Virus record (IMG/VR): IMGVR_UViG_3300033144_002959
Location: 29,709-93,708 of that record
DNA: 64,000 bases
Origin: a virus
Strand: one strand, 5' to 3'
The notes under the pieces were generated by a model. That model made no database searches. It saw nothing but the letters and a program-made list of their open reading frames with translations, and was not told where the DNA came from. Positions 36,198-52,040 of the stretch are shown piece after piece. The translations under genes were made by a program, and so were the position numbers. Positions within the stretch are counted from its first letter, which is position 1, and each line of letters begins with the position of its first letter.

Positions 36198-37786
36198 CCG
36201 CTCGGTCCATTAAATTCCGCAATTAGCCCATCCATGAATTCCATAAAGTCTGGTCTCGTAATCCCCTCGGCGTTTTCGACCATTTCAGCAAACATCGCTT
36301 TAGCTGTGGGATCGTTTGGATTCATTTCCCGCCACACTACGTAAATGTCATGATTGATTTTCTTTACTTCTATAGAGATTGGGGTGTGAAACTGGACTTC
36401 AATCTGCAACCCTTGCGGCGTTATCAGGTTGACATTTACGCCCTTATACTCCGGGCGCGAATCCCACGTGGATTCGAAGGAAGCGTTTTTGTAGCCCAAG
36501 TTTCTGAACCTTTCCATCACAGCCCGAATATCATTTACGTAATCCTCCGGCTCAGCCAGAAACGTGTACCGCAATGAGTCCGATATTCTCGCTGCCGCTT
36601 GCTCTTCAGTGACCCCGTACTTTTCCATCTGATTGCGAATCTTGCGCCTCGTGGACTTCAAATCCTTCAAGCGGTTATAGATCAACGTTCCGTCTTCAAT
36701 CGTTACAAGCCCATCGATACCGGGAAACTGCATTTCTTTAGAAGGAAAATCCATATCCAGTTCATCAGCCAGTCGAACCACGTCTCCAGTAACCGTGCTA
36801 TCAGACTCCCTCGCCAGTGCGACCATATCCCTTGCCAATGCAGCGACTAATTTTTCCTGCTCTGCGGGGGTAAACTCTTCACCCGGCAGCTCTACTATAT
36901 TTTCATTGATCGGTGTGACGTCGGCTGGCTGAGTCACCGTAACCGTTCCCGCTTTCACAATCACGCCCCGACACAATGGGTGAAATGGTGGCGTATCCCA
37001 ACCCTTATCCTGAACCTGAGATTTCGTCATCTGAGCAAGCTGGGCAACAGACTTCTCATCCTGCTTCGGCCAAGGAGCCACAGATTTCATGTCATCAGGA
37101 TTCGTTGTGGACATCCAGTTTTCCAGCTTGGCCTGCGCCTGCGGAACATCGAACGTGCGCCCGTGCATAGTCCGACATACTGGACAGGTCCGCCCATCGA
37201 GACGTTCATTGATCTGGAATTTACTGATACCTCTTGAAGTCGCCTCTACGGTGTACCCCCAGCTGGCCAGTCGTGACGTATGCAAACTTGAACCGATATC
37301 AATAAACGACTTCCCATTTTGGTTAACGCTACTGACAAACTCTTGCGGAAACCCCGGCGTTGCATCTTTTTTAACCGTCGCATCTTGCTGATCCGCCCGC
37401 TCACGTCCCAACATTTCAACAGCCAACCGGCACACAGACTGGGTCGCGTTTTCTTCCATCATAATGACCAGATTATTCGCCGCCAGCTTTATCTCTTCCG
37501 GCCTGCCAGTCTCCATGAATATAGATTTTCTCGGGTCACGGCTTAACCGGCTGGCCCCAAACAACACCGCTTGCATACCAATAAATTCAGCAAACCTACG
37601 GTTGTCTTCCGCCGCTTTGGCCAGACTAAACCCTTCACACAGATCAACAGCCGCAGCGAAATCGCCTGCGTTTACCAGCTCAAGCACTTCTCGGGTAAGG
37701 GTGGCAATATCACCGCGCCACGAATTTTGGATTCGGTTGCTGAGTGATTGTTCTAAGACTAAAAAACTTTTAATGCTGACAGTCAT
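36194..37786 (-). CDS. MuF-type minor head protein with a RelA/SpoT-like C-terminal domain
   Basis: A 530-residue protein. Residues 1-280 carry the minor head (Mu gpF-like) pattern with its metal-type motif: CPVCRTMHG (C201, C204, H208) and PPFHPLCRG (H269, C272). Residues 365-490 form an added domain with KSTRRKIRNQMEKYG, DSLRYTF, YKGVNVNL, IEVQFHTP and a final HDIYVVWRE. This order resembles RelA/SpoT-type nucleotidyltransferases (R-K segment, D-x-x-G-x-R-like, GYxSxH-like, E-x-Q-x-R-T-like, H..Y). MuF proteins elsewhere carry toxin domains at this end. The activity is inferred. Confidence 0.7.
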   Translation of the reverse strand: MTVSIKSFLVLEQSLSNRIQNSWRGDIATLTREVLELVNAGDFAAAVDLCEGFSLAKAAEDNRRFAEFIGMQAVLFGASRLSRDPRKSIFMETGRPEEIKLAANNLVIMMEENATQSVCRLAVEMLGRERADQQDATVKKDATPGFPQEFVSSVNQNGKSFIDIGSSLHTSRLASWGYTVEATSRGISKFQINERLDGRTCPVCRTMHGRTFDVPQAQAKLENWMSTTNPDDMKSVAPWPKQDEKSVAQLAQMTKSQVQDKGWDTPPFHPLCRGVIVKAGTVTVTQPADVTPINENIVELPGEEFTPAEQEKLVAALARDMVALARESDSTVTGDVVRLADELDMDFPSKEMQFPGIDGLVTIEDGTLIYNRLKDLKSTRRKIRNQMEKYGVTEEQAAARISDSLRYTFLAEPEDYVNDIRAVMERFRNLGYKNASFESTWDSRPEYKGVNVNLITPQGLQIEVQFHTPISIEVKKINHDIYVVWREMNPNDPTAKAMFAEMVENAEGITRPDFMEFMDGLIAEFNGPSG

Positions 37787-39629
37787 CGGGACGCTCAGCT
37801 ATAGAACTGGCAGCTCCGACAAGTTCAACAGCCCCGATCATGTCATGATCCACAGCGGACATCATTTTCAGAGTGCAATACCCATCAAACCGTTGTCGCG
37901 TAACTGCATCCATCCGTTCAATAGTGGTCCGCATTAACTCAGTTTCGGTTGCGGATACTTCGTTAGTCAACTGTGCTCGGCACCATTGGCCAACCAAGTC
38001 CATCATATCGAACGTATCCATCGCTTCCTTGCGCGACGGGGGGGTCGCTGGCTGCGAGGTGTTAGGCGGATTCTCAACGCCTGCCGTGAGTGCTGGCGCT
38101 GGCTCACCGACCGGTGCCACTATAACCGGAGGTTCAGGCTCTTCCGGCTCGCTGTCATCTGGTACCAGTGTCATACCAACAATCTCATTGACTGCTCCGA
38201 CTCTGGTCTCTCTCGACAAGTCTTCGGCCACGATACCCAGCGCTTCCAACTTGGTCTGCACGTCATCAACCGTCAACGGTAGTGACCTGAAAATAAACTC
38301 ACCTTCAGGGTCCAGTTCGCGCATGATCGTGTTGTTGATTATCTCATCGAACTCATCGCGCTCTGGTTGAAACACTTGCGCCTCGGTCACCGTGTAACTG
38401 GCAAACGCAGTTGCGAAACTGTAGTCCTGCGCTTTGCCCACAAAGATAGGGGGCAAGCGGAATGACGAACGCACACGCTCTTCACATCGAGCATCGTAAT
38501 TCTCAAACATCGAATCCTGAATACGCTCAGAACCAAAACGCTCTACCGTCACACGCACGGTACCGGGCTTATCCAATGAGCCTCCCGACGCAGCCACTTC
38601 GACAATGCCTGCCCGGTGATAGCTCGATCCCTTGCCCGACATATATTGCTGCAACTGCTTACGCACTTCGGGGGTCAACTCACCGCCCTGAATGATAATC
38701 AGCGCCGGAGGCAAGCCGCCGCTATTAAAGAAATCCAGATTCAACTCTTCGGCTTTACGGCTACCCAGTACGCTCGGAATCTGATTGATCCAACGTGGCA
38801 CACCGTAAGGAGTTTTCGCATCCTCATACACTGTGAAATACAGCACTTCGGTTGCCCGGTCTTTTATGTCCAGCTTTTCCTCACTCCATTCCCCGGTGAG
38901 TCTATTCAGCTCGCGGCTCGCGCCGTACTCTTTGAAGTAAATCACCCGCTTGCTAATGATCTGAGCGAACCGCCGCTCTCGAACATTCATCACAACTTCC
39001 ATTTCCTGACCGTCGCGCTGCACTTTCTGCTCAACCAATACGGGTTCATCCAGCTTCACCAGCCGCATTTGATGCGCCGGGATATGCTTCAGAAACATCA
39101 GCTCACCATCGATTGAACGCAGCACTTCCATGAATGCGTAGCCGACCTGCTCCAGATCGCGCCGGGTCTCGCGCCTCAATGTGGTGAATGACGTGCGGGG
39201 AAACGGTTCCTTGAACCAGTCTTCCAGCTTTTCTTTCTCTGGATCATTTTTAGGTTCGTCGTTCTCTTCGGCTTCATCATCCCTTTCTATTTCCCAGCCG
39301 GTGCCATCGATATTGACTTCCATTGCAGCAATCATCTGGCCCAGCGTATTATTGCGCTGGCACAGCATGGTCAATTGCTGGGGCTGAAACGGGGGGCGCA
39401 GCACTTGCGCCTCGGGATCATTCTTACGGGGGTCGAAAAAGAATGCTTCAAACGCATCGTCTTTTTCCAACTGACTACCAGCCAGCACTGCCTTATCCTG
39501 CTTCGACACGGTACCGGTTTTTACAACGGTCATGTGCGATGCAGGATCGCCCTGCACACCCATCGCGTTACCGAGAGACACGACTTTAGTACTCGGCCCC
39601 TCTCCATCACCCTTGTATATGATTGACAT
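37770..39629 (-). CDS. Portal protein
   Basis: A 619-residue portal of the PBSX-like type: FQPQQLTMLCQRNNTLGQMI near the start, a central KHIPAHQMRLVK, VIYFKEYG, DIKDRATEVLYF, YGVPRWINQIPSVLGSRKAEELN, FFNSGGLPP, and FRLPPIFVGKAQDYSFATAFAS. The portal forms the dodecameric ring through which DNA is packaged. The C-terminus (after about 470) is a variable proline-rich tail. An in-frame TTG lies upstream, but the ATG at 39629 follows the palindrome and is preferred. It overlaps the MuF-type gene by 17 bases. Confidence 0.9.
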   Translation of the reverse strand: MSIIYKGDGEGPSTKVVSLGNAMGVQGDPASHMTVVKTGTVSKQDKAVLAGSQLEKDDAFEAFFFDPRKNDPEAQVLRPPFQPQQLTMLCQRNNTLGQMIAAMEVNIDGTGWEIERDDEAEENDEPKNDPEKEKLEDWFKEPFPRTSFTTLRRETRRDLEQVGYAFMEVLRSIDGELMFLKHIPAHQMRLVKLDEPVLVEQKVQRDGQEMEVVMNVRERRFAQIISKRVIYFKEYGASRELNRLTGEWSEEKLDIKDRATEVLYFTVYEDAKTPYGVPRWINQIPSVLGSRKAEELNLDFFNSGGLPPALIIIQGGELTPEVRKQLQQYMSGKGSSYHRAGIVEVAASGGSLDKPGTVRVTVERFGSERIQDSMFENYDARCEERVRSSFRLPPIFVGKAQDYSFATAFASYTVTEAQVFQPERDEFDEIINNTIMRELDPEGEFIFRSLPLTVDDVQTKLEALGIVAEDLSRETRVGAVNEIVGMTLVPDDSEPEEPEPPVIVAPVGEPAPALTAGVENPPNTSQPATPPSRKEAMDTFDMMDLVGQWCRAQLTNEVSATETELMRTTIERMDAVTRQRFDGYCTLKMMSAVDHDMIGAVELVGAASSIAERPDDCQH

Positions 39630-39635
39630 GCGTCC

Positions 39636-39650
39636 GTCCAATTGATTGGA
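39636..39650. repeat. 16-bp palindrome, copy D, at the portal promoter
   Basis: GTCCAATTGATTGGA, followed by T instead of C, so 15 of 16 bases match. It occupies the interval between the predicted -10 element and the portal ATG, where a bound protein would block initiation or early elongation. Confidence 0.8.
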
Positions 39651-40751: not shown

Positions 40752-40936
40752 ATAAACCCCTTTTCTGTTGCCACACTATCGTACAACTCAATCTTCGCAC
40801 TGCATCCCGGCTCCAGATCATCCTCCTGATCCAACACCTGACTCAACGGAATCCAGACCCGCTCGGTTTCAAACTCGACCAGCACCGCTTTCTCAGTCCG
40901 GTGCACCACGTGTATATCAATCCAGTGCGTCATCAT
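40748..40936 (-). CDS. Small protein downstream of DNA polymerase
   Basis: A 62-residue protein with a strand-rich layout (IDIHVVHRTEKAVLVEFETERVWIP, CSAKIELYDSVA) suggestive of a small beta barrel such as an OB or SH3 fold. It overlaps the polymerase stop by four bases. A role in replication is possible from position only. Confidence 0.5.
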   Translation of the reverse strand: MMTHWIDIHVVHRTEKAVLVEFETERVWIPLSQVLDQEDDLEPGCSAKIELYDSVATEKGFI

Positions 40937-43251
40937 AATGGTAACTTCACAGTCTCTGCCAAATTGTTTAATCCGAACTCTACATCAACCGGGAAATCCA
41001 ACTGCGGTTTCCAACCGAATGCCCCCAACGGTAAATTCTCCATGACCTCTTTGATACGCCCAGCCCATTCCATATACTCATCCTCGGGCACGTAAAAACT
41101 CAAGCTGTCATGCGTGAACCCAAACATCCAAAGGTCTGGGTAACGCTTGTCCAGCTCTGCCATTGCCAGCAAACCCATGTCTGTCAACGTGGCCTGCACT
41201 CCAGTGTTCACTGCCTGCCGTTCACTCTGTGCCCGGATATCCTGCGCCCATGATTTGATCAATGGCAAATGTCTGATTCGACCCAGCGGAGACTCAATGT
41301 ATTTATGCTTACGGGCAAACGCTTTGGTCTCGTCATGCCACGGATGCAGCCGATCATACAGCCCAAAAAACGATTCTATGAATGCGTATGCTTCTTTGAG
41401 AGTCAGCGTCACCCCAAAAGATTTCTGTGCATAGTCCACAAAACCTTCCGCGCCCATCGTATAAATCAATCCGAAGTTTCCAGCTTTGCCCCCCTGCCTG
41501 ATATCAGCAATTGCCGGGTGTTTGATCGAAACCATTTCCATTGCTTCGGCCAGCTCCAGCCCATTCAACTGGGCACCGGTTTTCAAATGTAGATCGACGC
41601 CATCCTTGTACGATTGAATCATCGTCGGCTCATCAGCAATGCAGGCCACGATCCGTAACTCGCCCTGAGAGAAATCGACGTCCAGAATCACATAGCCTTC
41701 AGGCGGCACGTACACGCTTCTAAGCGGCTTTGCCCAGTCGGTATGCTTGGGTATCGTTTGGTACGCAGGTTCCTTTACAGACGTTCTCCCGGTACGTCCG
41801 CCGCTGTCATCAGCCTTTGTATCGTCGCCATGAAACAATCCACGAAAAAGCATATAGCTCGGGTGGAAACGGTCATCTGATCGCACGTGTTTCATGAACC
41901 CATCGATGTACGTGCTCTTAGTTTTGCTCGCCTTACTAAATTCCAGTAGCGCCGCAATGAATGGCCCAGCTGTTTTGTGTGTCTTGAACAATTCGAAGTG
42001 CGCCGCAGCTGTGCTCGGCTTGCCGGTCTTCGGCGTCATTATCTTTGGGGTGAGATTCAATCCCTGCCGAGTGAACAGAAAATCGGATACGATCTTTGGG
42101 CGACTGGGTCTCAGGTCTCGATAATGTTTATGCCGCAACGTGTACGGCAACATTTCAATCATAGCTTCCTGATTCGTTTCCAGAACCTGACTCACTTCCT
42201 CATCAAGTTCGTGGTACCGCTTCATGTCCACTACCATGCCGCGTTGTTCCATCTTGCGCACCGCATGTTGTGCCGGGTGCAGCAGCTTCTGATAGAACCG
42301 CAACAGCCGTGGTTGCTTGATCAACTGGCCACGCATCTTTTGTGCTACCTGAAGGCCAGCATCGGTATCGCCCCCAGCGTATTGAATGATGTCCGACTTC
42401 GGCACCAAATCCATTCGCGACTTATCGTACTTACGATTGAATTCGTCGTCATACCCGCCCATGCCCGTGTAAACTTTCGTGTGCAGGTTCAGGCTGTTGC
42501 TGCGGTTCTCTTGCAGCAACGATCCGACCAGTGTGGTGTCCAGTTTGAACGCACTGAAATCGTGAATGTCCCACTTACGCTCCAACCATAACGCATCGTA
42601 TTTGAAATTCGCGCCGTACAATTTAACCTCATTGCTAGAGCACAAGTAATCCAGCCACACCAATTCCTGCGCATCAGGCCAGCCAGCCTTATCGAAATAC
42701 ATGACGTAAGATTCACTCGGTGTAATCGTCAAACTCACTGCGACTATGTAAGCATCCGGGTCCATGTAATCCGTACCGACTGTTTCCAAATCAAGCGATA
42801 TCGGTACTGCCTTACCAGACAATTTGTAAGCTGCCTGAATCGTCTTCACGGGTTCCGCGAAACTCGTAACCTCTTTGTACACTCCGACAACCGGGTTCAA
42901 TGTTCCCTCGGTCATCAAGCGCATCGCGAGTTTCATATCCCAGAAGATTTCAGGACGTCTGGCGTAATCAAAAAAGGCCAGACTCGCGTCCCACGTCACG
43001 AGATACTGACCTGTATCTTTGCCAAGAATCACCCCACGCATACTGGTGATCGCTCGATTCTTCGGGGCGAACCCACGGGTCGCGAGTTCCTTGAGATTGT
43101 CTTTTCCGAATGCGAGACACACGTCTTTCGTCCCCATCTTTGTCGGAAACTTAGACACGCATTTATAAATGACCCCGGATTTTATAAGCCGGGGCCTGAC
43201 TAATTCTTTGAACGATTTGTCGTCGTAGTTAGCCCACGCTATTAGGGTCAA
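40933..43251 (-). CDS. Family A DNA polymerase with 3'-5' exonuclease domain
   Basis: A 772-residue polymerase. Proofreading motifs are intact: LDLETVG (Exo I), NFKYDALW (Exo II) and YAGGDTDAG (Exo III). Polymerase motif A is DVDFSQGELRIV, motif B is RQGGKAGNFGLIYTMG, and motif C reads THDSLSF, with Ser where family A usually has Glu. No 5'-3' exonuclease domain is present. The frame is open to 43284 (GTG), but a TTG at 43251 follows GGAGG by seven bases and is the better start. It overlaps the upstream gene by 23 bases. Confidence 0.93.
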   Translation of the reverse strand: MTLIAWANYDDKSFKELVRPRLIKSGVIYKCVSKFPTKMGTKDVCLAFGKDNLKELATRGFAPKNRAITSMRGVILGKDTGQYLVTWDASLAFFDYARRPEIFWDMKLAMRLMTEGTLNPVVGVYKEVTSFAEPVKTIQAAYKLSGKAVPISLDLETVGTDYMDPDAYIVAVSLTITPSESYVMYFDKAGWPDAQELVWLDYLCSSNEVKLYGANFKYDALWLERKWDIHDFSAFKLDTTLVGSLLQENRSNSLNLHTKVYTGMGGYDDEFNRKYDKSRMDLVPKSDIIQYAGGDTDAGLQVAQKMRGQLIKQPRLLRFYQKLLHPAQHAVRKMEQRGMVVDMKRYHELDEEVSQVLETNQEAMIEMLPYTLRHKHYRDLRPSRPKIVSDFLFTRQGLNLTPKIMTPKTGKPSTAAAHFELFKTHKTAGPFIAALLEFSKASKTKSTYIDGFMKHVRSDDRFHPSYMLFRGLFHGDDTKADDSGGRTGRTSVKEPAYQTIPKHTDWAKPLRSVYVPPEGYVILDVDFSQGELRIVACIADEPTMIQSYKDGVDLHLKTGAQLNGLELAEAMEMVSIKHPAIADIRQGGKAGNFGLIYTMGAEGFVDYAQKSFGVTLTLKEAYAFIESFFGLYDRLHPWHDETKAFARKHKYIESPLGRIRHLPLIKSWAQDIRAQSERQAVNTGVQATLTDMGLLAMAELDKRYPDLWMFGFTHDSLSFYVPEDEYMEWAGRIKEVMENLPLGAFGWKPQLDFPVDVEFGLNNLAETVKLPL

Positions 43252-43660
43252 CGACCTTCCTCCATGTTGCCTCAGCGGGATCACATTCCCACTTTCGGAC
43301 TACTCCTGAGTGTACCCGACTCGACGCTTGTAGAAAAGTTTTCACTGACTTAAATATCTCCGGCATTTTATAGTCCACTTTCGATCCATCGATCAGCATG
43401 ATATACGCCGGAACGTCCAGTCCGAAAAACACCAACATCAGATACAGGTCTCCGCGCACGTGCACGACCAGTGCAGATTGATTGCCTTTCTTTTTGTGCA
43501 TTGCTGCCACAATTTCCATCGGGCAACTCATTCGCATTGTCGGCACCATCGGTACCGACAGAGTGCCTTTACCTTTGACCGTACGCGCAGTCACACGTAA
43601 GTGCATTTTCAGCGCGTCCGCCATCCAGTACGAATGTTCTTTTGGTAACAGTTGATTCAT
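43229..43660 (-). CDS. Hypothetical protein upstream of DNA polymerase
   Basis: A 143-residue alpha/beta protein with PMEIVAAMHKKKGNQSALVVHV and DLYLMLVFFGLDVPAYIMLIDGSKV. The ATG at 43660 overlaps the upstream stop (ATGA), has GGAAGG seven bases before it and is preferred over an earlier start. It is co-transcribed with the polymerase and may be a replication accessory protein, but no motif shows this. Confidence 0.55.
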   Translation of the reverse strand: MNQLLPKEHSYWMADALKMHLRVTARTVKGKGTLSVPMVPTMRMSCPMEIVAAMHKKKGNQSALVVHVRGDLYLMLVFFGLDVPAYIMLIDGSKVDYKMPEIFKSVKTFLQASSRVHSGVVRKWECDPAEATWRKVVDPNSVG

Positions 43661-43950
43661 GTGATCGCCTTCCATTCGACTTTGTTTTTGTTTAGTTCAG
43701 TGGCACGAATCCGGCCCATCAAAACTCCGAGGTACGTCAGATCAAAATCAACCACCGCGAATTCTGTCCTGACCCCTTTACCCGTGTCCCCTTCCAGCCT
43801 AATGCCAGTAATCGCATTCGTTGCAGTCCAAACAATTTCCTCATTTTCGTCCAGACCGGGAAACGGATTACCGGTTGTTATCTGGTCGCCCTTTTCGAAT
43901 TTCCTAAGTGCAGTTGCATCCATGTCAAATACCTTACGTCCCTTCGCCAT
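43657..43950 (-). CDS. Hypothetical protein, unknown function
   Basis: A 97-residue protein, likely a small beta barrel (EEIVWTATNAITGIRLEGD, TEFAVVDFDLTYLGVLMGRI). It overlaps the preceding gene by 17 bases and the following by four. It forms an apparent unit with the polymerase and its two neighbours. Confidence 0.5.
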   Translation of the reverse strand: MAKGRKVFDMDATALRKFEKGDQITTGNPFPGLDENEEIVWTATNAITGIRLEGDTGKGVRTEFAVVDFDLTYLGVLMGRIRATELNKNKVEWKAIT

Positions 43951-44929
43951 TGATCACCCCAAGGTCAGGCATCGGAGTTTCAAATTCCAACCCTGTGCCC
44001 ATCAGTACCGCGCCCAGTGCTCGCTTCGCAATCAGCTCTTCAATGCCATTGAAGTGCACCGACGTGTACCCTTTTTGTATGTAGTCTTCATTGAATCCTG
44101 CCGCGACCAGCGGGTCTTTATGTTTGCCAACCGGCCCCTCGACTCGGATACTCAAATTCGAATTGCTCACCCATCGGGCAGCGAACTTTAGTTTCCCGGC
44201 AATGCCAATGCAGTGATACGTACTGGAATCACTCGTGGCTTTAACCGGCTGATACATCGTTGTCGCCTGCGACAGTTTCACCTTATCCATTTTCAGCGCA
44301 ACGTCTTTGTCCGTTGGAAATACTTCACTCACTTTCGGGCCGTGCACAATCTCATCTTTATCAGGGAACACGGTCACTTCATCGGACTGGTTGAACTGAG
44401 TGTCAACCAAATTTCCTAATTCAACCTGTCCCTTAATAAACGCAGTCCCCTCCATGCTCTCTTCGGCCTCAACGTCATCCAGCATTGCCGATGCCATGTG
44501 CTCTTTGAATACTTTGCCCTCGACAAATTCGCTTGAACTGATCGTGCCAATCTTGGGGCCGGTCTTCTCACCTTCCGCAGCCAACTGGTCAAGGTCTTTC
44601 CAGACTGCCGCTACTGACCCGGTTTTCTTCAGAGGCTTTTTCTTCAACTGTTTCAAGCAAATCGAAAGGGCACCGTTTATTTTCTTCGCCACTTCCTCTT
44701 GTGCAGCAACAGGCAAAATACCTTCCTTTGCCATTTTCAATATGCCGGATTTGATCGGCATATCTTTGACGATGCCATACTCGTGGTTACCGAACTCCAG
44801 CTTGGTGCCTGCGACATTAGCCTTACAGATAACGTCGTAATTTTTCAGTGACGATACCTGTTCAATAGACAACCCGAGACCGAACCATGCGTCCAGTTTC
44901 TCGGGGGTGTATTTGAAACTCAGTGCCAT
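43934..44929 (-). CDS. Hypothetical protein, first gene of the polymerase unit
   Basis: A 331-residue protein. The N-terminal third is helical with a lysine-rich stretch (LKQLKKKPLKKTGS). The C-terminal third carries a strand-rich segment (YHCIGIAGKLKFAARWVSNSNLSIRVEG) ending GAVLMGTGLEF. The ATG at 44929 lies after GGAGGCAATTG, and a TTGACA promoter is centred about 40 bases upstream. No family recognised. Confidence 0.55.
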   Translation of the reverse strand: MALSFKYTPEKLDAWFGLGLSIEQVSSLKNYDVICKANVAGTKLEFGNHEYGIVKDMPIKSGILKMAKEGILPVAAQEEVAKKINGALSICLKQLKKKPLKKTGSVAAVWKDLDQLAAEGEKTGPKIGTISSSEFVEGKVFKEHMASAMLDDVEAEESMEGTAFIKGQVELGNLVDTQFNQSDEVTVFPDKDEIVHGPKVSEVFPTDKDVALKMDKVKLSQATTMYQPVKATSDSSTYHCIGIAGKLKFAARWVSNSNLSIRVEGPVGKHKDPLVAAGFNEDYIQKGYTSVHFNGIEELIAKRALGAVLMGTGLEFETPMPDLGVINGEGT

Positions 44930-44956
44930 CAATTGCCTCCATGTCTGTATATAATC

Positions 44957-44985
44957 ATTGTGCCTGATTGATGCACGTCTGTCAA
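44957..44985 (-). promoter_or_regulatory. Promoter of the polymerase unit
   Basis: The minus strand reads TTGACA, 17 bases, CACAAT, then a leader containing GACATGGAGGC. The -35 is perfect and the -10 matches four of six. It is one of a set of similar promoters in this half of the window. Confidence 0.65.
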
Positions 44986-44989
44986 ACTC

Positions 44990-45685
44990 TCACTTGACAT
45001 CAAGATCACCGAAAATACAGTGCTTCGCATTAACCGGATTGATCATTGCTTGCATCGCTTTGGTTGTTGTCCCAATCTTTTTTTTGCTGCCGAAAACCTT
45101 CGCGCCCTTGACTTCTTTACAGGCAAAATATTTCATTAAGAATTTGACCTGCGTCGTGGACTCGACCGCTTTCTTACAATAGTTTTTGCGTACATACGTG
45201 ATCGCATCAGGCTCATCAGTCATCACCGCGACCAATGCACTGAGCACAATCCCGGTTCTGCCGTGGCCTCCAATGCAACCAATGTGCACCTTCTGACCGT
45301 CACGAATCTGATCGGCCAACCAAGCAATCAACTCTATAAATTCATCGGAGTCTTTCGGCACCGACATATCTTTGATTTCATAATGAATAGCATGACCGTG
45401 CGCCCACGGAAACCGCTGCTTATGCTGCTTCATGCCGTAATCAAGACCAACGTAAATGTCAGCGTCATTGTGGATTGGGTATGAGCACGATCCGCCAAAC
45501 ACGAACCGGGTTCCACCTTCTGACAAATTCAATTCCAATGGTGGGTGACTTTCATAACAGCGTTTGAATTCGCCCCACTTGGTTTTTGATTTCGATTTCT
45601 GTGACTCCCACGTGGACGCAGCAGTCGAATCCCAATCGGGAGTCGAACTAATCGCCACAACTTTTCCTGATTTTTTAGTAGTCAC
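44990..45685 (-). CDS. Dual-specificity or tyrosine phosphatase-like protein, copy 1
   Basis: A 231-residue protein with the CX5R signature of cysteine phosphatases, VHIGCIGGHGRTGIV (nucleophile C137, R143), preceded at D106 by IKDMSVP, matching the general-acid loop of dual-specificity phosphatases. Residues 60-90 contain FVFGGSCSYP and VGLDYGM. The C-terminus is basic and lysine-rich. The substrate could be a phosphoprotein or an RNA 5' end. Its end overlaps the 45675-46730 gene by 11 bases, so they are co-translated. Confidence 0.8.
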   Translation of the reverse strand: MTTKKSGKVVAISSTPDWDSTAASTWESQKSKSKTKWGEFKRCYESHPPLELNLSEGGTRFVFGGSCSYPIHNDADIYVGLDYGMKQHKQRFPWAHGHAIHYEIKDMSVPKDSDEFIELIAWLADQIRDGQKVHIGCIGGHGRTGIVLSALVAVMTDEPDAITYVRKNYCKKAVESTTQVKFLMKYFACKEVKGAKVFGSKKKIGTTTKAMQAMINPVNAKHCIFGDLDVK

Positions 45686-46730
45686 GTGCCTTCACCGCCT
45701 TTTTAATTTTCACTCCGGGCATCACTTCGAAATACAACTTCTCGTGTGCCGCCTTTTTCGCCGCCGCTGCATCCTTCGCCGCCGCAACTTTCTCCAGCAC
45801 CGCTGCATTGGCAGCTTTGAATTTTGGATCGTTACCGAACTTTTGCATGTTCGCTGACTTATACTGATCGTATGTTTGAACCGCACCCAACGCTTCAACA
45901 ACGTCCCAGTCAACCCAACTGTCGTACTCTGTTTTTAGCAATGTCTCCATCGAGAACAGATCGCCCGAATGCGTATTTTGCACGTGTGTGCAAAACGGTG
46001 ACCCGGACTTAATGAGGTTTGGAATTTGCCCAGCTCTTTGGCAATCCAAAATCGTGTACAACTGGAATGCGTCATAGTGCGTGAACTGAAATCCTTTGTT
46101 AAAAATTGGCCCATTGTTATGCGCCAATGCGTAACCAATATCGAGCATCATTTCAACGCTGATTTTTCCGTTCACAGTATCGCGTATCGCTTCGGTGACA
46201 CTGCCCCACGGCTTGCCGCCATAACTCGATGACCAGCTCAACGTGTTAAATACGTCAACCAAATAATCCAGATACGGTCCCAACTTCAGATCACCACTGT
46301 AATTAAACAGAGCCTTCTGAGCACCGGACTTCACTTTTTTCGTAAAGTCCGCACACTGCGAACCATGTTTTTGGATCAACTGGTCTTCTTGCACATTCGT
46401 CAAATGCCGTGACTCACGAGTTGTCGTGATCAGAATGTACTGGAACAATCGCGACCCAGCGGAATTCAAAACTTCGTGGAATCGTTCAACCAATGGCAGC
46501 TTACTGCCCAATGGTTCATCGGGATCGTGCGCAGCTTCAATCTCACCCATCGCGTGCTGCAACAGATAAAATTCAAGCGCCTCGCTCTCAGGGCTTTTCT
46601 GCCCTGCCGAGTTAAGGTTCGCTTTCGCAGTCTTCCCGGCAACCGATAAAGGTACCTGCGACAAATCACGCGCCATCGTACCGGGGCGCTCACTCTTGTG
46701 GTATGCAATTGTGTCGTAATCGTGAATCAT
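45675..46730 (-). CDS. Hypothetical protein between two phosphatase-like genes
   Basis: A 351-residue, largely helical protein. Visible segments are EALEFYLLQHAMGEIEAAHD, SRLFQYILITTTRESRHLT, TLSWSSSYGGKPWGS and a C-terminal Ala/Lys-rich helix (EKVAAAKDAAAAKKAAHEK). It may be a substrate, adaptor or partner of the two flanking phosphatase-like enzymes. The ATG at 46730 follows GGAGGCTTG, just downstream of a TTGACA promoter; the longer frame would begin inside the promoter. Confidence 0.6.
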   Translation of the reverse strand: MIHDYDTIAYHKSERPGTMARDLSQVPLSVAGKTAKANLNSAGQKSPESEALEFYLLQHAMGEIEAAHDPDEPLGSKLPLVERFHEVLNSAGSRLFQYILITTTRESRHLTNVQEDQLIQKHGSQCADFTKKVKSGAQKALFNYSGDLKLGPYLDYLVDVFNTLSWSSSYGGKPWGSVTEAIRDTVNGKISVEMMLDIGYALAHNNGPIFNKGFQFTHYDAFQLYTILDCQRAGQIPNLIKSGSPFCTHVQNTHSGDLFSMETLLKTEYDSWVDWDVVEALGAVQTYDQYKSANMQKFGNDPKFKAANAAVLEKVAAAKDAAAAKKAAHEKLYFEVMPGVKIKKAVKARDY

Positions 46731-46752: not shown

Positions 46753-46781
46753 AGTATGCCTGCGTGAACCGCGTTTGTCAA
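46753..46781 (-). promoter_or_regulatory. Promoter upstream of the 45675-46730 gene
   Basis: TTGACA, 17 bases including TCACGCAGG, then CATACT on the minus strand, with leader GACATGGAGGC. It matches the promoter upstream of the copy 2 phosphatase in the spacer as well (TCACGCAGGCA). Confidence 0.65.
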
Positions 46782-46783
46782 AT

Positions 46784-47338
46784 CTACTTATACGATCTGA
46801 CTATTTTCGCTAACCGTTTGACATCGAAATCTCGCACAAACTCTTCCTGTGCTTTTGTCTCGACAGCTTCCGGGCGATACATTGCACGGGCCTTACTAAC
46901 GTAATCGACCGTTCGAAAATCCCACCATCGCCGGGTCGATTCGTGCGCCACCTTAATCAGCAGTGCCACAAATAATCCTGTCCTGCCTCTGCCCCAACCG
47001 CAGCCCACAAACGGAATCAAACCGCCCTTCATCAGCACAATCGTGCTCAGCAAAGCGCTCTCAACCAGCTTCGTATTAGGGATGCCGAAATCTTTGATCG
47101 GACAATCGACCATGTACTTTGCTTTCATTTCCGCAGCCAACTTAATGCCGGGACTATCCTTCGGCTTCTCACTGTACGGCCCAGCCATAACCGGGGACAC
47201 ACCCCACGGAAATAGAATACCAAACGCTATTGTCTCAACCGCTGGGTGTCCAATTGATTGGACGCCTGCAAAATCGAACACGTCATCGTCTTCGATTTGG
47301 TATTCGATATCCACGTTATAGTTTTTCTTTTCTGACAC
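46784..47338 (-). CDS. Dual-specificity or tyrosine phosphatase-like protein, copy 2
   Basis: A 184-residue protein with the CX5R loop VGCGWGRGRTGLF (C113, R119) and the general-acid loop CPIKDFGIP (D83), in the same order as copy 1. The N-terminus is acidic. The GTG at 47338 lies six bases after GGAGGT and downstream of a promoter, so the longer upstream frame is rejected. Copy E of the palindrome lies inside the coding sequence (codons for V-Q-S-I-G). The enzyme is more basic around the active site than copy 1. Confidence 0.75.
   Translation of the reverse strand: MSEKKNYNVDIEYQIEDDDVFDFAGVQSIGHPAVETIAFGILFPWGVSPVMAGPYSEKPKDSPGIKLAAEMKAKYMVDCPIKDFGIPNTKLVESALLSTIVLMKGGLIPFVGCGWGRGRTGLFVALLIKVAHESTRRWWDFRTVDYVSKARAMYRPEAVETKAQEEFVRDFDVKRLAKIVRSYK
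47248..47263. repeat. 16-bp interrupted palindrome, copy E (inside a gene)
   Basis: GTCCAATTGATTGGAC, identical to copies A and B, but located within the phosphatase-like coding sequence about 75 bases after its start codon. Confidence 0.8.
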
Positions 47339-47342
47339 TGCG

Positions 47343-47777
47343 CTACCTCCGTGCTTTGTGTCTGTTATTCGTATTTCCATTTTGCCTGCGTGACGCACGT
47401 TTGTCAACGCCGCTACAATCGGGGCATGGCCACTCACGCCTGTGTGAATTCTCGCACTCCGAAAGTTCGCAGTGCCCGTTGCAACTTACGCAAGCCTCAT
47501 ACACGACAAATTTCCGCGTATCGTCACAGCTCACACAATCCGGCTCATAAAAACTCAGGGACTCAAGCCTATTACGGTTCACCGTCAACAGCAGGTCGCC
47601 ATAGCGACGATTGCCCTCTGGGTGGGTGATGGGAGCGCTTAAATACACGGCCTCCCTGAGCCACGTCAGAGCGTCTGAGCCATCCTGCAAATCCATGTCT
47701 CGGACCCAGCCCAACAAACTCAACGGGATACTAATCCCCTGATTTTGCTGCTTTCTTTTTCCGATATACAACGCCAC
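47343..47777 (-). CDS. Zinc-binding small protein
   Basis: A 144-residue protein. The C-terminal half has paired cysteines CVSC, CVSC-N-GHC, C-E and CPDC, consistent with a DnaJ-like or double zinc ribbon. The N-terminus has SALTWLREAVYLSAP. The GTG start at 47777 is uncertain because GGAGG lies 13 bases upstream; the gene overlaps its neighbour by 47 bases. The promoter of the next gene lies in its last 25 codons. Confidence 0.5.
   Translation of the reverse strand: MALYIGKRKQQNQGISIPLSLLGWVRDMDLQDGSDALTWLREAVYLSAPITHPEGNRRYGDLLLTVNRNRLESLSFYEPDCVSCDDTRKFVVYEACVSCNGHCELSECENSHRREWPCPDCSGVDKRASRRQNGNTNNRHKARR
47379..47407 (-). promoter_or_regulatory. Promoter of the copy 2 phosphatase-like gene
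   Basis: TTGACA, 17 bases ending TCACGCAGG, then CAAAAT on the minus strand. The leader ends with CACGGAGGT before the GTG start. The spacer is nearly the same as that of the promoter at 46753-46781. Confidence 0.65.
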
Positions 47778-48045
47778 GATCTACTTTTATCCTCCGTGGT
47801 GCTTCGACAACCACCTTGACTCCATGCCGTTTAATATCTGCACCTGTTCCGGCACTCACCCTGACCTGCGGCAAAATTTCCGACGCACGTCGATCAGTAA
47901 CTTCATGCACCGTATGCAGGGCTGGCTGAAAAACTTTCAGATGGAAATTAAATTCGTGCCGAATATCGTGCAAAACCACGCGCACGTCGTCAACATAAAA
48001 ATCGTTGTACGGTTCATCGGGGTAAAGTTCCAATACCAATCCCAT
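47731..48045 (-). CDS. CsrA-like RNA-binding regulator candidate
   Basis: A 104-residue protein. The start MGLVLELYPDE ... DDVRVVLHDI and the end VKVVVEAPRRIKVDRGVVYRKK align with the first and last strands of CsrA (compare 'rIGvnAPkev.VhReEiy'). About 45 extra residues lie between, rich in H, E and V. CsrA dimers bind GGA in mRNA leaders to block translation; the phage leaders here are GGA-rich. A GGAGG ribosome site lies six bases before the ATG. The insertion makes the call tentative. Confidence 0.5.
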   Translation of the reverse strand: MGLVLELYPDEPYNDFYVDDVRVVLHDIRHEFNFHLKVFQPALHTVHEVTDRRASEILPQVRVSAGTGADIKRHGVKVVVEAPRRIKVDRGVVYRKKKAAKSGD

Positions 48046-48505
48046 CGTCTTCCTCCGTGTTCACGCTGATACTCAGCGCTGTTAATGCTCGCCGGGTTAC
48101 TCTCCATATGGAGCCACCCTTTGTACCGGGCCGAGCCTCTACCCGTTCGATCAAACCTTTGTGCATCAATACGATCAACTGACTACTCACGTCCGACGTA
48201 TTCTGGCCACTCACCCCGCACAAGTCCCGAGTCGTTACAGTCTTCGGGTACAACGATGCGACATGCCCTAAGCACTTTTTGAGTTTCGTACCCTGTTCAG
48301 GCATTCGAAACTCTTCCTTTTTCTGAGTGTGTATGCGGAAACCACCATCAGTAGTTTTCGCATAAACATAACGATGCAGTCCGCAAATGCAACGCTGAAT
48401 AATATCCATGTCCGTGATTTCGTACCAAGCATTGCCATGACATTTCGGGCACTCATCCCGTTCGTTCATCACTCGCGGTTGCTTTCGTACGATCCGTACA
48501 GCCAT
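48014..48505 (-). CDS. Zinc-ribbon winged-helix DNA-binding protein
   Basis: A 163-residue protein. Residues 19-42 form a zinc ribbon (ECPKCHG and QRCICG). Residues 75-145 look like a winged helix: VASLYPKTVTTRDLCGVSG as a helix-turn-helix, then QLIVLMHKGLIERVE and GSIWRVTRRA as the wing. It is a good candidate for a phage transcription regulator and hence a candidate reader of the palindrome. It overlaps the CsrA-like gene by 32 bases. Confidence 0.6.
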   Translation of the reverse strand: MAVRIVRKQPRVMNERDECPKCHGNAWYEITDMDIIQRCICGLHRYVYAKTTDGGFRIHTQKKEEFRMPEQGTKLKKCLGHVASLYPKTVTTRDLCGVSGQNTSDVSSQLIVLMHKGLIERVEARPGTKGGSIWRVTRRALTALSISVNTEEDDGIGIGTLPR

Positions 48506-48511
48506 ATACCC

Positions 48512-50650
48512 TCACTTGAACACGTCAAATACCAAGCGATTTTTGGATACAGCCTTTGGCTTTACCCGCACCGGAGTACCGGCTTTCTCCATCATTTCGA
48601 ACAGCTTAGTCGCGACGTGCTCGCCTCCGATTTCTTTGGCGAACCCTTCATCAATCTCGACTATACCATCGCTTTCAAGTAATTCCTCAATTGTTTCAAC
48701 ACGTGACACCACCTTCCAACCCGCATCACGTAATTTGTTGACCTGATCTGGCGTCGAAAAACTAGACGGAACTATGATCACTTTTTCTTTCAGTTTCTGC
48801 CAATTCAAATTCATCAACGCCTTTATTCGATCATGCGTTTCCGCTTCATTGACCGAATTGTTAGGTGGCCCAACCAGATTCCAAAGCATCTTGTCGGCAT
48901 CCAACCTGTTCTCTCCGGGCAACGTCAAATCAATGTAGCACTCAACAATATCGGTGTCGGCTTCCGCCTTCATCAGAAATTGTGTGAACTGTCCAAGGTC
49001 TGATCCCCCGGTCGCAATGTATCGATTGTCCAGCACCTTGCTATCGTGCGACGTCTTGACCATAACCTTATCGGTCGCATCAATCGCCCAACCTAAAACA
49101 GTTTTCGCGTAATCGTCAACGTCGCCTTTCGTAAGCACCAACGGTTGTAACCAGACTTTACCGCTGGCACCGTCAATCGTAATCTTTGGCCAACCAGATA
49201 TCTCCGGCAAGTCTATGCAACCAACAACACAATGTTTTTCAAGTGATCGCCCGACAACCGCTGCATGACTGGTCGCTCCCCCGGTTCGTGTCAGGATGCC
49301 GACACTCGCTGCCATGCCCCCAAAATCTTCTGGCGTCGTTTCATCCGTGACCAGTATCACCGGCTTATCCGCACCGAGCATCTTAGCTTCCTCAGCACTG
49401 GTAACAACGCTACCAACAACCAGACCACCACCAGCGGCGATACCCTGATAATCCGGCTCAGGAACTTCGCCCTTGATCCGAACTTTTTTCATTGCCATGT
49501 ACTGCTTGGCGCTAACTCGACTGACCGCTTCCTCTTTGGAAATCAATCCGCCCTTCGCCATGTCATGTGCAATTCTGAATGCTGCCTTGCCGCTTCGCTT
49601 GCCAACTCTGCACTGGAGCATCCAAAGTTTACCGTCTTCAACAGTGAACTCGATATCCATCATTTCTTTGTAATGCTTCTCAAGCGTCATGGCGATATCA
49701 TCCAGTTCTTTCGCAATGTCCGCATTCCAAACAGCCATGCCCGTTAAATCGAGCGGAGTAGTAGTGCCAGCAACAACGTCTTCGCCCTGAGCGTTCACAA
49801 GGAACTCACCCATCATTGCGTTTTTGCCTGTTGCTGGGTCGCGAGTAAACGCAACACCGGAACATGACTCATCGTTCATGTTGCCATACACCATCATTTG
49901 AATGTTGACCGCAGTACCCAAGTCATTATCCATGTCGTGCAACTCCCGGTATTCTTTCGCTCGCTTGCTGTCCCACGAGTTGAACACCGCAGTAATCGAT
50001 CCGATCAACTGATCACGCAAGGTGTCGGGAAAGTCGGTGCCAAATCGTTTCGCGTAATGCGTCTCAAACTTAATAACCGCTTTGGTCAAATGCTTGACAC
50101 TCTTCACCGTCTCCGCATCGGAACTCGGTGACGATTTCAAATTATATTTGTAGCCCTTGATGAAATCCCACAACTGACCGAACCCATGCAAGCCCTTAAC
50201 CGTTGTGGCGTACTGAGAAATCTGACGACGTCTGCAATCAAGCGCTGAGCATTCGCCCAGTCGCGATTTCCAGTCATCAAGATTGTCGGACGTCAGCCCG
50301 ATATTCAACAGGGTATCCATCATACCCGGCATCGAAAACTTACCGCCAGATCGCACAGAAAACAGCGGCTCATAGCCAACCGTCTTCGTGATTTTTTCCA
50401 GCGCCGGAAGCACATACTTATCAACTAACATTTCGACATACTTATTTTTTTCAAAGTTGCCGGTCATGTCGTTTCGATATGAATTACATGCCAGTGTCGG
50501 AATCGTGATCCCGTAAGGTACAGGCATACCCAGCTTGGCCATTTCAGCAAGGTTCGCGCCCTTGCCACCAAGCAGGTCTGACATTGAAGCATCGCCTTCG
50601 GTGAAACCATTCACCGAACCGAATTGATAAATTACTTGACCTTCTGCCAT
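48512..50650 (-). CDS. Pyruvate phosphate dikinase-like phosphotransferase lacking the PEP barrel
   Basis: A 712-residue protein. Residues 1-350 follow the PPDK/PEP synthase nucleotide-binding domain: GGKGANLAEMAKLGMPVP, FSVRSGGKFSMPGMMDT, SGVAFTRDPATGKN, NAQGEDVVAGTTTP and LWMLQCRVGKR. Residues 405-505 are the swivelling phosphohistidine domain with GGATSHAAVVGRS (H462). PPDK then has a C-terminal PEP/pyruvate barrel of about 350 residues; here it is replaced by about 205 unrelated residues. It may phosphorylate a different acceptor, as rifampin phosphotransferases do with the same modules. It has its own promoter. Confidence 0.82.
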   Translation of the reverse strand: MAEGQVIYQFGSVNGFTEGDASMSDLLGGKGANLAEMAKLGMPVPYGITIPTLACNSYRNDMTGNFEKNKYVEMLVDKYVLPALEKITKTVGYEPLFSVRSGGKFSMPGMMDTLLNIGLTSDNLDDWKSRLGECSALDCRRRQISQYATTVKGLHGFGQLWDFIKGYKYNLKSSPSSDAETVKSVKHLTKAVIKFETHYAKRFGTDFPDTLRDQLIGSITAVFNSWDSKRAKEYRELHDMDNDLGTAVNIQMMVYGNMNDESCSGVAFTRDPATGKNAMMGEFLVNAQGEDVVAGTTTPLDLTGMAVWNADIAKELDDIAMTLEKHYKEMMDIEFTVEDGKLWMLQCRVGKRSGKAAFRIAHDMAKGGLISKEEAVSRVSAKQYMAMKKVRIKGEVPEPDYQGIAAGGGLVVGSVVTSAEEAKMLGADKPVILVTDETTPEDFGGMAASVGILTRTGGATSHAAVVGRSLEKHCVVGCIDLPEISGWPKITIDGASGKVWLQPLVLTKGDVDDYAKTVLGWAIDATDKVMVKTSHDSKVLDNRYIATGGSDLGQFTQFLMKAEADTDIVECYIDLTLPGENRLDADKMLWNLVGPPNNSVNEAETHDRIKALMNLNWQKLKEKVIIVPSSFSTPDQVNKLRDAGWKVVSRVETIEELLESDGIVEIDEGFAKEIGGEHVATKLFEMMEKAGTPVRVKPKAVSKNRLVFDVFK

Positions 50651-50677: not shown

Positions 50678-50706
50678 ATTGTCTCAAACGTGGGTACGTT
50701 TGTCAA
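50678..50706 (-). promoter_or_regulatory. Promoter of the PPDK-like gene
   Basis: TTGACA, 17 bases, GACAAT on the minus strand, followed by a leader with GACAGGGAGGC. The -35 is perfect; the -10 matches four of six. Confidence 0.65.
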
Positions 50707-51434: not shown

Positions 51435-52040
51435 TTACTCTACTATTGCATAGTGAAACCGCTTTGTCAAATAGACTTTATGCTCATTTGAATCCAGCGC
51501 CATCCACAGCTTGTAATCCCTATCGAAATATCGGTGCACTGCTTGCAACAACTCAGTGTCGTAAAAATCAGGCCAGTGATAATAACCATGCTGCGGTTTG
51601 TAAGGCATTTTCATCGACACCCCGAGCCAGTCCGACAAAGCCCCTTTCGCCAACCACTGCATACGCTCAAGCTGCCCGACCCATATCAGACCATCGGCAC
51701 CACTCAAATGCCCAGCAAGTTCGTTCGTCTGTGGCCGGATATGAGCATTAAAGCTGTCAGGGTCTTGGGCCAATACCCACCGGCACCACTCTGGGAAATC
51801 GACGTGCGGCCCAAACTTCGATATACCGTCGAGAGTAGATGTCTCAATCTTTGGCCTAACAAGATGATTCCAACACGACACCAACCTGTGTGCTGGGTTA
51901 CGGACCACGGTCACATAACGATGTTCAGGAAACTGGTGTGGCCCCCAATGCTTTCCTGCGAACGCCTTTCGAATATTCGATGACCCGCACTTCATCAATC
52001 CAATAGCTGTGACTGCTCCGCATTCTATGGGGACTGACAC
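51435..52040 (-). CDS. Sulfotransferase-like protein
   Basis: A 201-residue protein with features of the Sulfotransfer_2/3 families: a P-loop-like IGLMKCGSSNIRKAF (residues 13-27, PAPS 5'-phosphosulfate site) and VVRNPAHRLVSCWNH (45-59, matching the R-x-P..R..S 3'-phosphate site). The C-terminus has RYFDRDYKLWM, similar to the ends of these enzymes. It could add sulfate to a surface or virion glycan. The start is a GTG 2 bases after the upstream stop; an ATG further in would cut the P-loop. Confidence 0.7.
   Translation of the reverse strand: MSVPIECGAVTAIGLMKCGSSNIRKAFAGKHWGPHQFPEHRYVTVVRNPAHRLVSCWNHLVRPKIETSTLDGISKFGPHVDFPEWCRWVLAQDPDSFNAHIRPQTNELAGHLSGADGLIWVGQLERMQWLAKGALSDWLGVSMKMPYKPQHGYYHWPDFYDTELLQAVHRYFDRDYKLWMALDSNEHKVYLTKRFHYAIVE
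51442..51470 (-). promoter_or_regulatory. Promoter of the 50866-51417 gene
   Basis: TTGACA, 17 bases, AATAGT on the minus strand, followed by leader GTCACGGAGGC. It lies in the last codons of the sulfotransferase-like gene. Confidence 0.6.

Follow-up and report, generated by a model that had tools for sequence, protein, structure and literature searches.

The window, a stretch of 64,000 nucleotides taken from a 93,708-base IMG/VR virus record, encodes a 712-residue protein which, judged by sequence comparison, is a member of a widespread family of pyruvate phosphate dikinase (PPDK) derivatives that are devoid of the PEP/pyruvate barrel and are misannotated as PPDK in phages. The corresponding gene is part of a conserved block also encoding PTP-type phosphatases and a helical protein (P368), and this block suggests a phage phospho-transfer pathway mislabelled as metabolism. 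Since genes for portal, head, tape-measure and DNA polymerase proteins are present in the record, the window was assigned to a tailed phage.

The ATP-to-histidine half of the kinase

The following features were assigned to the kinase gene and its immediate upstream region:

48512..50650, minus strand: predicted barrel-less PPDK-like phosphotransferase, 712 aa, ATG start, SD GGGAGG
49586..50650, minus strand: ATP-grasp half, aa 1-355 (Pfam, alignment to PPDKs, residue conservation)
49151..49453, minus strand: phosphohistidine swivelling domain, aa 400-500 (Pfam and alignment to PPDKs)
49265..49267, minus strand: codon of His462, the predicted catalytic residue within GGATSHAAVV, conserved in relatives
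48515..49150, minus strand: C-terminal replacement domain, approximately aa 501-712 (212 aa), fast-evolving, AF2 model weakly TIM-barrel-like
50678..50706, minus strand: sigma70-type promoter-like site, TTGACA-N17-GACAAT with extended -10 (TG), consensus match only

Coordinates, strand and start of the gene were given correctly in an earlier sequence-only reading of this DNA. Its description of an intact ATP-grasp half and phosphohistidine domain is likewise in agreement with Pfam, phmmer and residues invariant in 71/71 sequences. Pfam matches were obtained for PPDK_N (1.2e-48) and PEP-utilizers (1.9e-19), and solved PPDKs were aligned by phmmer from residue 8 or 15 to residues 482-553 with E-values down to 6.7e-105. 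Furthermore, the HMM of PHROG 18609 matched the N-terminal two thirds of the protein (residues 7-527; 1.3e-152). The residues K30, R100, D332, E334, Q346, R348, T460 and H462 were constant in all 71 distinct phage-type kinases. Among these, K30, R100, D332, E334, Q346 and R348 presumably represent the ATP-grasp set of PPDK and H462 the catalytic histidine; both the K, R, D/E, Q/R set and the histidine of the swivelling domain are present in the window kinase. Its ATP-to-histidine half looks catalytically intact with respect to these conserved positions.

Absence of the PEP/pyruvate barrel

Neither PEP-utilizers_C (PF02896) nor any other Pfam family was matched past residue 497 of the kinase, and PF02896 was found in 0/54 kinase C-terminal regions. 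Five PPDK barrel motifs, including RTEHMF, RFLDPP, GTND and CGE, were missing from all of the 76 kinase relatives, and the same searches recovered barrel motifs in 9-10 of 10 full-length PPDKs serving as controls. Moreover, comparison of the kinase C-terminus with the PPDK barrel profile by hhalign yielded a probability of 1.3%. Against TIGR01828, the NCBIfam PPDK equivalog, the kinase scored 478 bits, i.e., below the cut-off of 843, and the control PPDK (L050) reached 1386. In phage kinases, approximately 170-210 residues are located where PPDK has approximately 360. The loss of the barrel proposed in the sequence-only reading is thus confirmed, and the enzyme as it stands is not an ordinary PPDK, the barrel being absent. 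A barrel supplied in trans was considered and rejected, as a PF02896 protein was encoded in 0/32 phage records carrying the module, the controls being positive in 14/14 genomes. Because PF02896 and the barrel motifs are missing in cis and no PF02896 protein was found elsewhere, a complete PPDK is impossible, either alone or with a phage-encoded partner domain.

The C-terminal replacement domain

Based on sequence clustering, residues 501-712 are a real domain common to the family, with homologous C-termini. Grouped by BLAST, 56 of the 71 kinase C-termini joined one cluster, and two further clusters matched by hhalign (95.7% and 80.7%). Identity to the window kinase ranged from 8-24% in this domain as compared to 37-52% in the N-terminal part when the close relative L001 (52% and 66%, respectively) was left out. 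Domain length among relatives varied between approximately 100 and 230 aa, and C-terminal columns averaged 18-34%, with D574 as the one near-invariant polar residue.

For the C-terminus, a confident structure was predicted by AF2 (pLDDT 86.9, pTM 0.78), in which strands and helices alternate. Many TIM barrels, including transaldolases and designed barrels, were among its top PDB matches, all of them weak (TM <= 0.39, E >= 0.011). The structure prediction for this region recommended in the sequence-only reading therefore returned barrels without a significant match among them. No Pfam family and no PDB sequence better than E 0.11 were matched by the domain, and its best match in a viral structure library was an unnamed 685-aa protein (TM 0.42), perhaps a family member itself. 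Concerning the boundary, HMMER alignments pass the His domain and reach residue 553, the profile-profile match to PPDK stops at residue 528, and alignment to T. brucei PPDK pairs the 'WA/WC' helix and the first strand of the PPDK barrel with the kinase. Of the earlier statement that about 205 unrelated residues replace the barrel, the replacement holds, and the unrelatedness is put in doubt by these alignments and by the weakly TIM-barrel-like model. A collapsed barrel, which would now serve docking, is the most likely interpretation of this domain; the domain may also be unrelated to the PPDK barrel.

Distribution of the family and previous annotations

Relatives of the kinase were detected by tblastn in 58 phage records, a few of which represent full-length PPDKs. 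In IMG/VR, 147 stretches with relatives were found, of which 80 were kept. Members include Vibrio phages SIO-2, J26 and PG28, Stenotrophomonas phages DLP3 and DLP5, Rhizobium phage RHph_TM16 and Rhodobacter phage RcZahn; databases label them PPDK, kinase or hypothetical, with PHROG 18609 named 'kinase'. The gene was reported as a PPDK auxiliary metabolic gene in several studies (PMC12038007, PMC9229204, PMC10272388, PMC10141217, PMC10671443), in one of which PEP was docked into a modelled 'TIM barrel' of J26 ORF98, residues 524-691 (PMC12038007). In J26 ORF98 itself, PF02896 and all of the barrel motifs tested (0/4) are absent. In a phylogenetic tree, phage-type proteins together with the phage G protein were separated from nine cellular PPDKs, a small cellular sample that did not comprise mycobacterial VadK.

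The family is hence already known, and VadK represents one studied precedent for this type of enzyme. The idea of a lone, new phosphotransferase gene put forward in the sequence-only reading was not borne out as stated, since the family occurs in dozens of phages and a barrel-less PPDK histidine kinase has been described (VadK, PMC13400623). The gene block as a unit is new; no earlier account of it was found in the accessible literature. This block, which was missed in the earlier reading, is the best clue to function.

Composition and conservation of the gene block

Downstream of the kinase, the block comprises, in an order kept among the phages, genes for a CsrA-like protein, PTP1, P368, usually PTP2, and p332, followed by DNA polymerase I and portal protein:

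48014..48505, minus strand: Zn-ribbon (CxxC...CxC) and winged-helix-like regulator, 163 aa, in 21/58 testable loci
47731..48045, minus strand: CsrA-like protein with an insertion, 104 aa, in 56/58 testable loci
47343..47777, minus strand: p144, small variable block member, in 35/58 testable loci
46784..47338, minus strand: PTP1, DSP/PTP-type phosphatase, 184 aa, SD-preceded GTG start (ORF listed from 47437)
45675..46730, minus strand: P368, all-helical protein, 351 aa, start ATG 46730
44990..45685, minus strand: PTP2, second phosphatase (HIGCIGGHGRTG), missing in SIO-2/J26-like Vibrio phages
43934..44932, minus strand: p332 with conserved C-terminal domain, in 57/58 testable loci
40933..43284, minus strand: DNA polymerase I, boundary of the block
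37770..39641, minus strand: portal protein, next landmark after DNA polymerase I
44957-44985, 46753-46781, 47379-47407 and 51442-51470, minus strand: further TTGACA-N17 promoter-like sites before block genes

Distinct phage-type loci extending at least 4.6 kb downstream of the kinase were regarded as testable (n=58). As deduced from gene content, the kinase is strictly co-inherited with PTP1 and P368 (58/58 each) and nearly always with the CsrA-like protein, p332 and PTP2 (two PTPs in 57/58). In the window, the kinase is followed by PTP1, P368 and p332 in this order. Block members were found in 0/6 testable full-length PPDK loci. Among relatives of the CsrA-like protein, the best match to CsrA (8.7e-6) narrowly missed the Pfam cut-off, and the J26 homologue is annotated as CsrA. 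The Cys-x5-Arg signature is kept in both PTP1 and PTP2; among PTP1 relatives, the catalytic Cys is constant and the Arg is present in 98%.

A promoter of its own had been postulated for the kinase gene, and a promoter-like site (TTGACA-17-GACAAT with extended TG) is indeed located just upstream of it. For each of the genes encoding the kinase, P368 and p332, an upstream site of the TTGACA type is present in 42-49% of relatives versus approximately 5% background. Within the window, the sites ahead of PTP1, P368 and p332 are nearly identical to each other, and the kinase site is similar.

Several annotations of block genes deviate from the domain content observed here. PHROG 17568, labelled 'thymidylate synthase', matches at 44990-45685 and 46784-47437 (minus strand), which encode PTP-type phosphatases; this label may stem from DLP5/DLP3 records calling PTP2 thymidylate synthase. 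In J26 (L113:4127-6005), the p332 homologue is annotated as 'pyruvate decarboxylase' and the P368 homologue as 'putative membrane protein', neither of which is supported by Pfam.

The P368 protein

P368 possesses approximately 20 invariant residues (columns) among its relatives and was modelled with confidence as a nearly all-helical protein (pLDDT 92.5, pTM 0.87). No PDB sequence match and no fold match to solved structures (best probability 0.08) were obtained, and there is no Pfam family common to its members. The groups of isolates in which P368 was found coincide with those of the kinase (33 Vibrio, 4 Stenotrophomonas, 2 Rhizobium and 1 Rhodobacter), and 7/7 P368 matches on genome contigs are located beside the kinase and phosphatases. 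Outside the block, P368 was not found in the annotated phage collection or in the genome contigs.

Comparison with known systems

Mycobacterium tuberculosis VadK (Rv1127c) presumably belongs to NCBIfam NF004531, the PRK05878-type truncated PPDKs. Against this model, the window kinase (374.8 bits) and the RHph_TM16 protein (434.2 bits) remained below the cut-off of 456 bits. VadK and the phage kinase share the PPDK ATP-grasp and His domains with the catalytic His kept, and the pyruvate barrel is missing in both; however, VadK has no domains besides the ATP-binding and the His domain, whereas the phage kinase adds approximately 200 residues and, unlike VadK, resides in a phage gene block with phosphatases. 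Autophosphorylation of VadK at His422 was detected by mass spectrometry and was abolished by H422A (PMC13400623). VadK function requires His422, and the protein interacts with partner enzymes (PMC13400623).

PPDK (TIGR01828) and the phage kinase correspond in domain order and catalytic residues over the first ~500 residues of the latter, but the PEP/pyruvate barrel and all of its motifs are confined to PPDK. The PHROG 18609 members from SIO-2, J26, PG28, DLP3, DLP5, RHph_TM16 and RcZahn share gene family and block with the window, whereas the window's C-terminus is only ~12-18% identical to those of these 'PPDK' phages. Rifampin phosphotransferase, PEP synthase and glucan water dikinase also combine a domain for ATP binding with a swivelling phosphohistidine domain in order to phosphorylate other acceptors; however, domain order or acceptor domains differ, and the match is limited to the ATP and His domains. 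The analogy to rifampin phosphotransferase drawn in the sequence-only reading proved to be loose, because the order there is ATP domain, rifampin domain and, last, His domain. The kinase scored 36.6 bits against the curated rifampin phosphotransferase model (cut-off 999), and the last ~100 residues of that enzyme match kinase residues 393-498 (NCBIfam). In glucan water dikinase, the His domain is situated ahead of the nucleotide domain, and carbohydrate-binding modules are added; by this description, the domain order of the window kinase is the reverse. Bacillus phage G gp139 (L007:4983-6080; ~350-365 aa) is a further barrel-less PPDK-like protein and ends after the His domain; it lacks the central ATP-grasp region (approximately residues 118-212 of the window kinase), the C-terminal domain and the block.

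Proposed function and alternative explanations

With somewhat better than even confidence, the kinase is considered to be a phage-specific barrel-less PPDK derivative acting as an ATP-dependent histidine phosphotransferase within the conserved block. As in the chemistry of PPDK and VadK, ATP would phosphorylate His462 with departure of AMP, and the His domain would swivel to an acceptor site other than the pyruvate pocket. The PTP-type phosphatases might then remove or process the transferred phosphate. P368, or something that it binds or holds, is a tentative candidate for the acceptor, because P368 has invariant polar residues, which are absent from the kinase C-terminal domain. A more speculative version, for which the expectation is lower still, regards the kinase, the PTP-type phosphatase(s), P368 and p332 as an undescribed phage phospho-transfer pathway, in which P368, with a fold not represented in the PDB, would receive or use the phosphate, possibly for building an unusual DNA or nucleotide modification. 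Conservation of the block may partly result from shared ancestry of one phage group instead of a pathway, host proteins could be the targets of the PTPs, and the occurrence of the kinase in phage G without any block gene counts against the block reading. The sub-threshold NF004531 score and the ~200 residues without counterpart in VadK likewise count against the proposed function. If the proposed function is true, the phage kinase would be a second PPDK stripped to a histidine kinase beside VadK, making PPDK a recurrent source of phospho-signalling proteins; the strictly conserved block supplies concrete, testable partners, namely the phosphatases and the helical P368.

That the block as a whole serves nucleotide or DNA hypermodification, the kinase (pyro)phosphorylating a base or nucleotide, P368 acting on it and the phosphatases finishing or editing the product, is rather unlikely. 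The block adjoins DNA polymerase I and is located downstream of the large terminase gene in several phages, and 15/15 restriction enzymes failed to cut the DNA of phage DLP3, which carries the block (PMC7326821). However, this resistance could be explained by a sugar and glycosyltransferase cassette of DLP3 next to ParB and terminase genes. The DLP3 glycosyltransferase has relatives in 14/32 module records, the record of the window not being among them; the link between DLP3 resistance and the block is therefore only suggestive. Classical thymidylate synthase-type enzymes and QueC occur in 1/32 module records each, so that any modification would need other enzymes. A search for Tet_JBP gave no match in module records, and none in controls either; digestion data for other block phages were not found in the accessible literature. 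Similar cassettes near ParB and terminase genes, comprising deacetylase, epimerase, aminotransferase, methyltransferase and glycosyltransferase genes, were noted in DLP3 (L105:14670-20095) and RcZahn (L112:44793-49584).

Less probable again is a small-molecule phosphotransferase or ligase whose C-terminal domain, a shrunken barrel, accommodates a new small acceptor much as rifampin phosphotransferase or the PigC/RedH ligases do. The homology of the kinase C-termini, the alternating strands and helices of their model and its weak matches to transaldolases and designed barrels are compatible with such a role, but almost no polar residues are conserved in the domain, its identity among relatives is low and its length variable as given above, and the phage G relative lacks it. 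A non-catalytic leftover with a structural or regulatory role would fit the decay of the C-terminus and an enzyme activity deduced from sequence; it is very improbable given the constancy of all six ATP-grasp residues and of the catalytic His in sequences otherwise only ~40-50% identical. An ordinary PPDK feeding host glycolysis, the role assigned to it in publications on vibriophages J26, Virtus, LV6, R18L and R21Y, can practically be dismissed: the PPDK match over the N-terminal two thirds (E 1e-105), the annotations and the docked J26 model are outweighed by the missing barrel in the window kinase, its relatives and J26 ORF98, the absence of a PF02896 protein elsewhere in the 32 module phages, the sub-threshold equivalog score and the shortened C-terminus. 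The name given to the gene in several publications and in dozens of phage records thus implies a glycolysis-boosting function that is very unlikely by sequence.

A defence system was also considered and rejected, the only two PADLOC matches being weak (E about 0.008). Two genes upstream of the kinase, at 51435-52040 (minus strand), a sulfotransferase-like protein is encoded (Sulfotransfer_2, 5.8e-7, above the Pfam cut-off).
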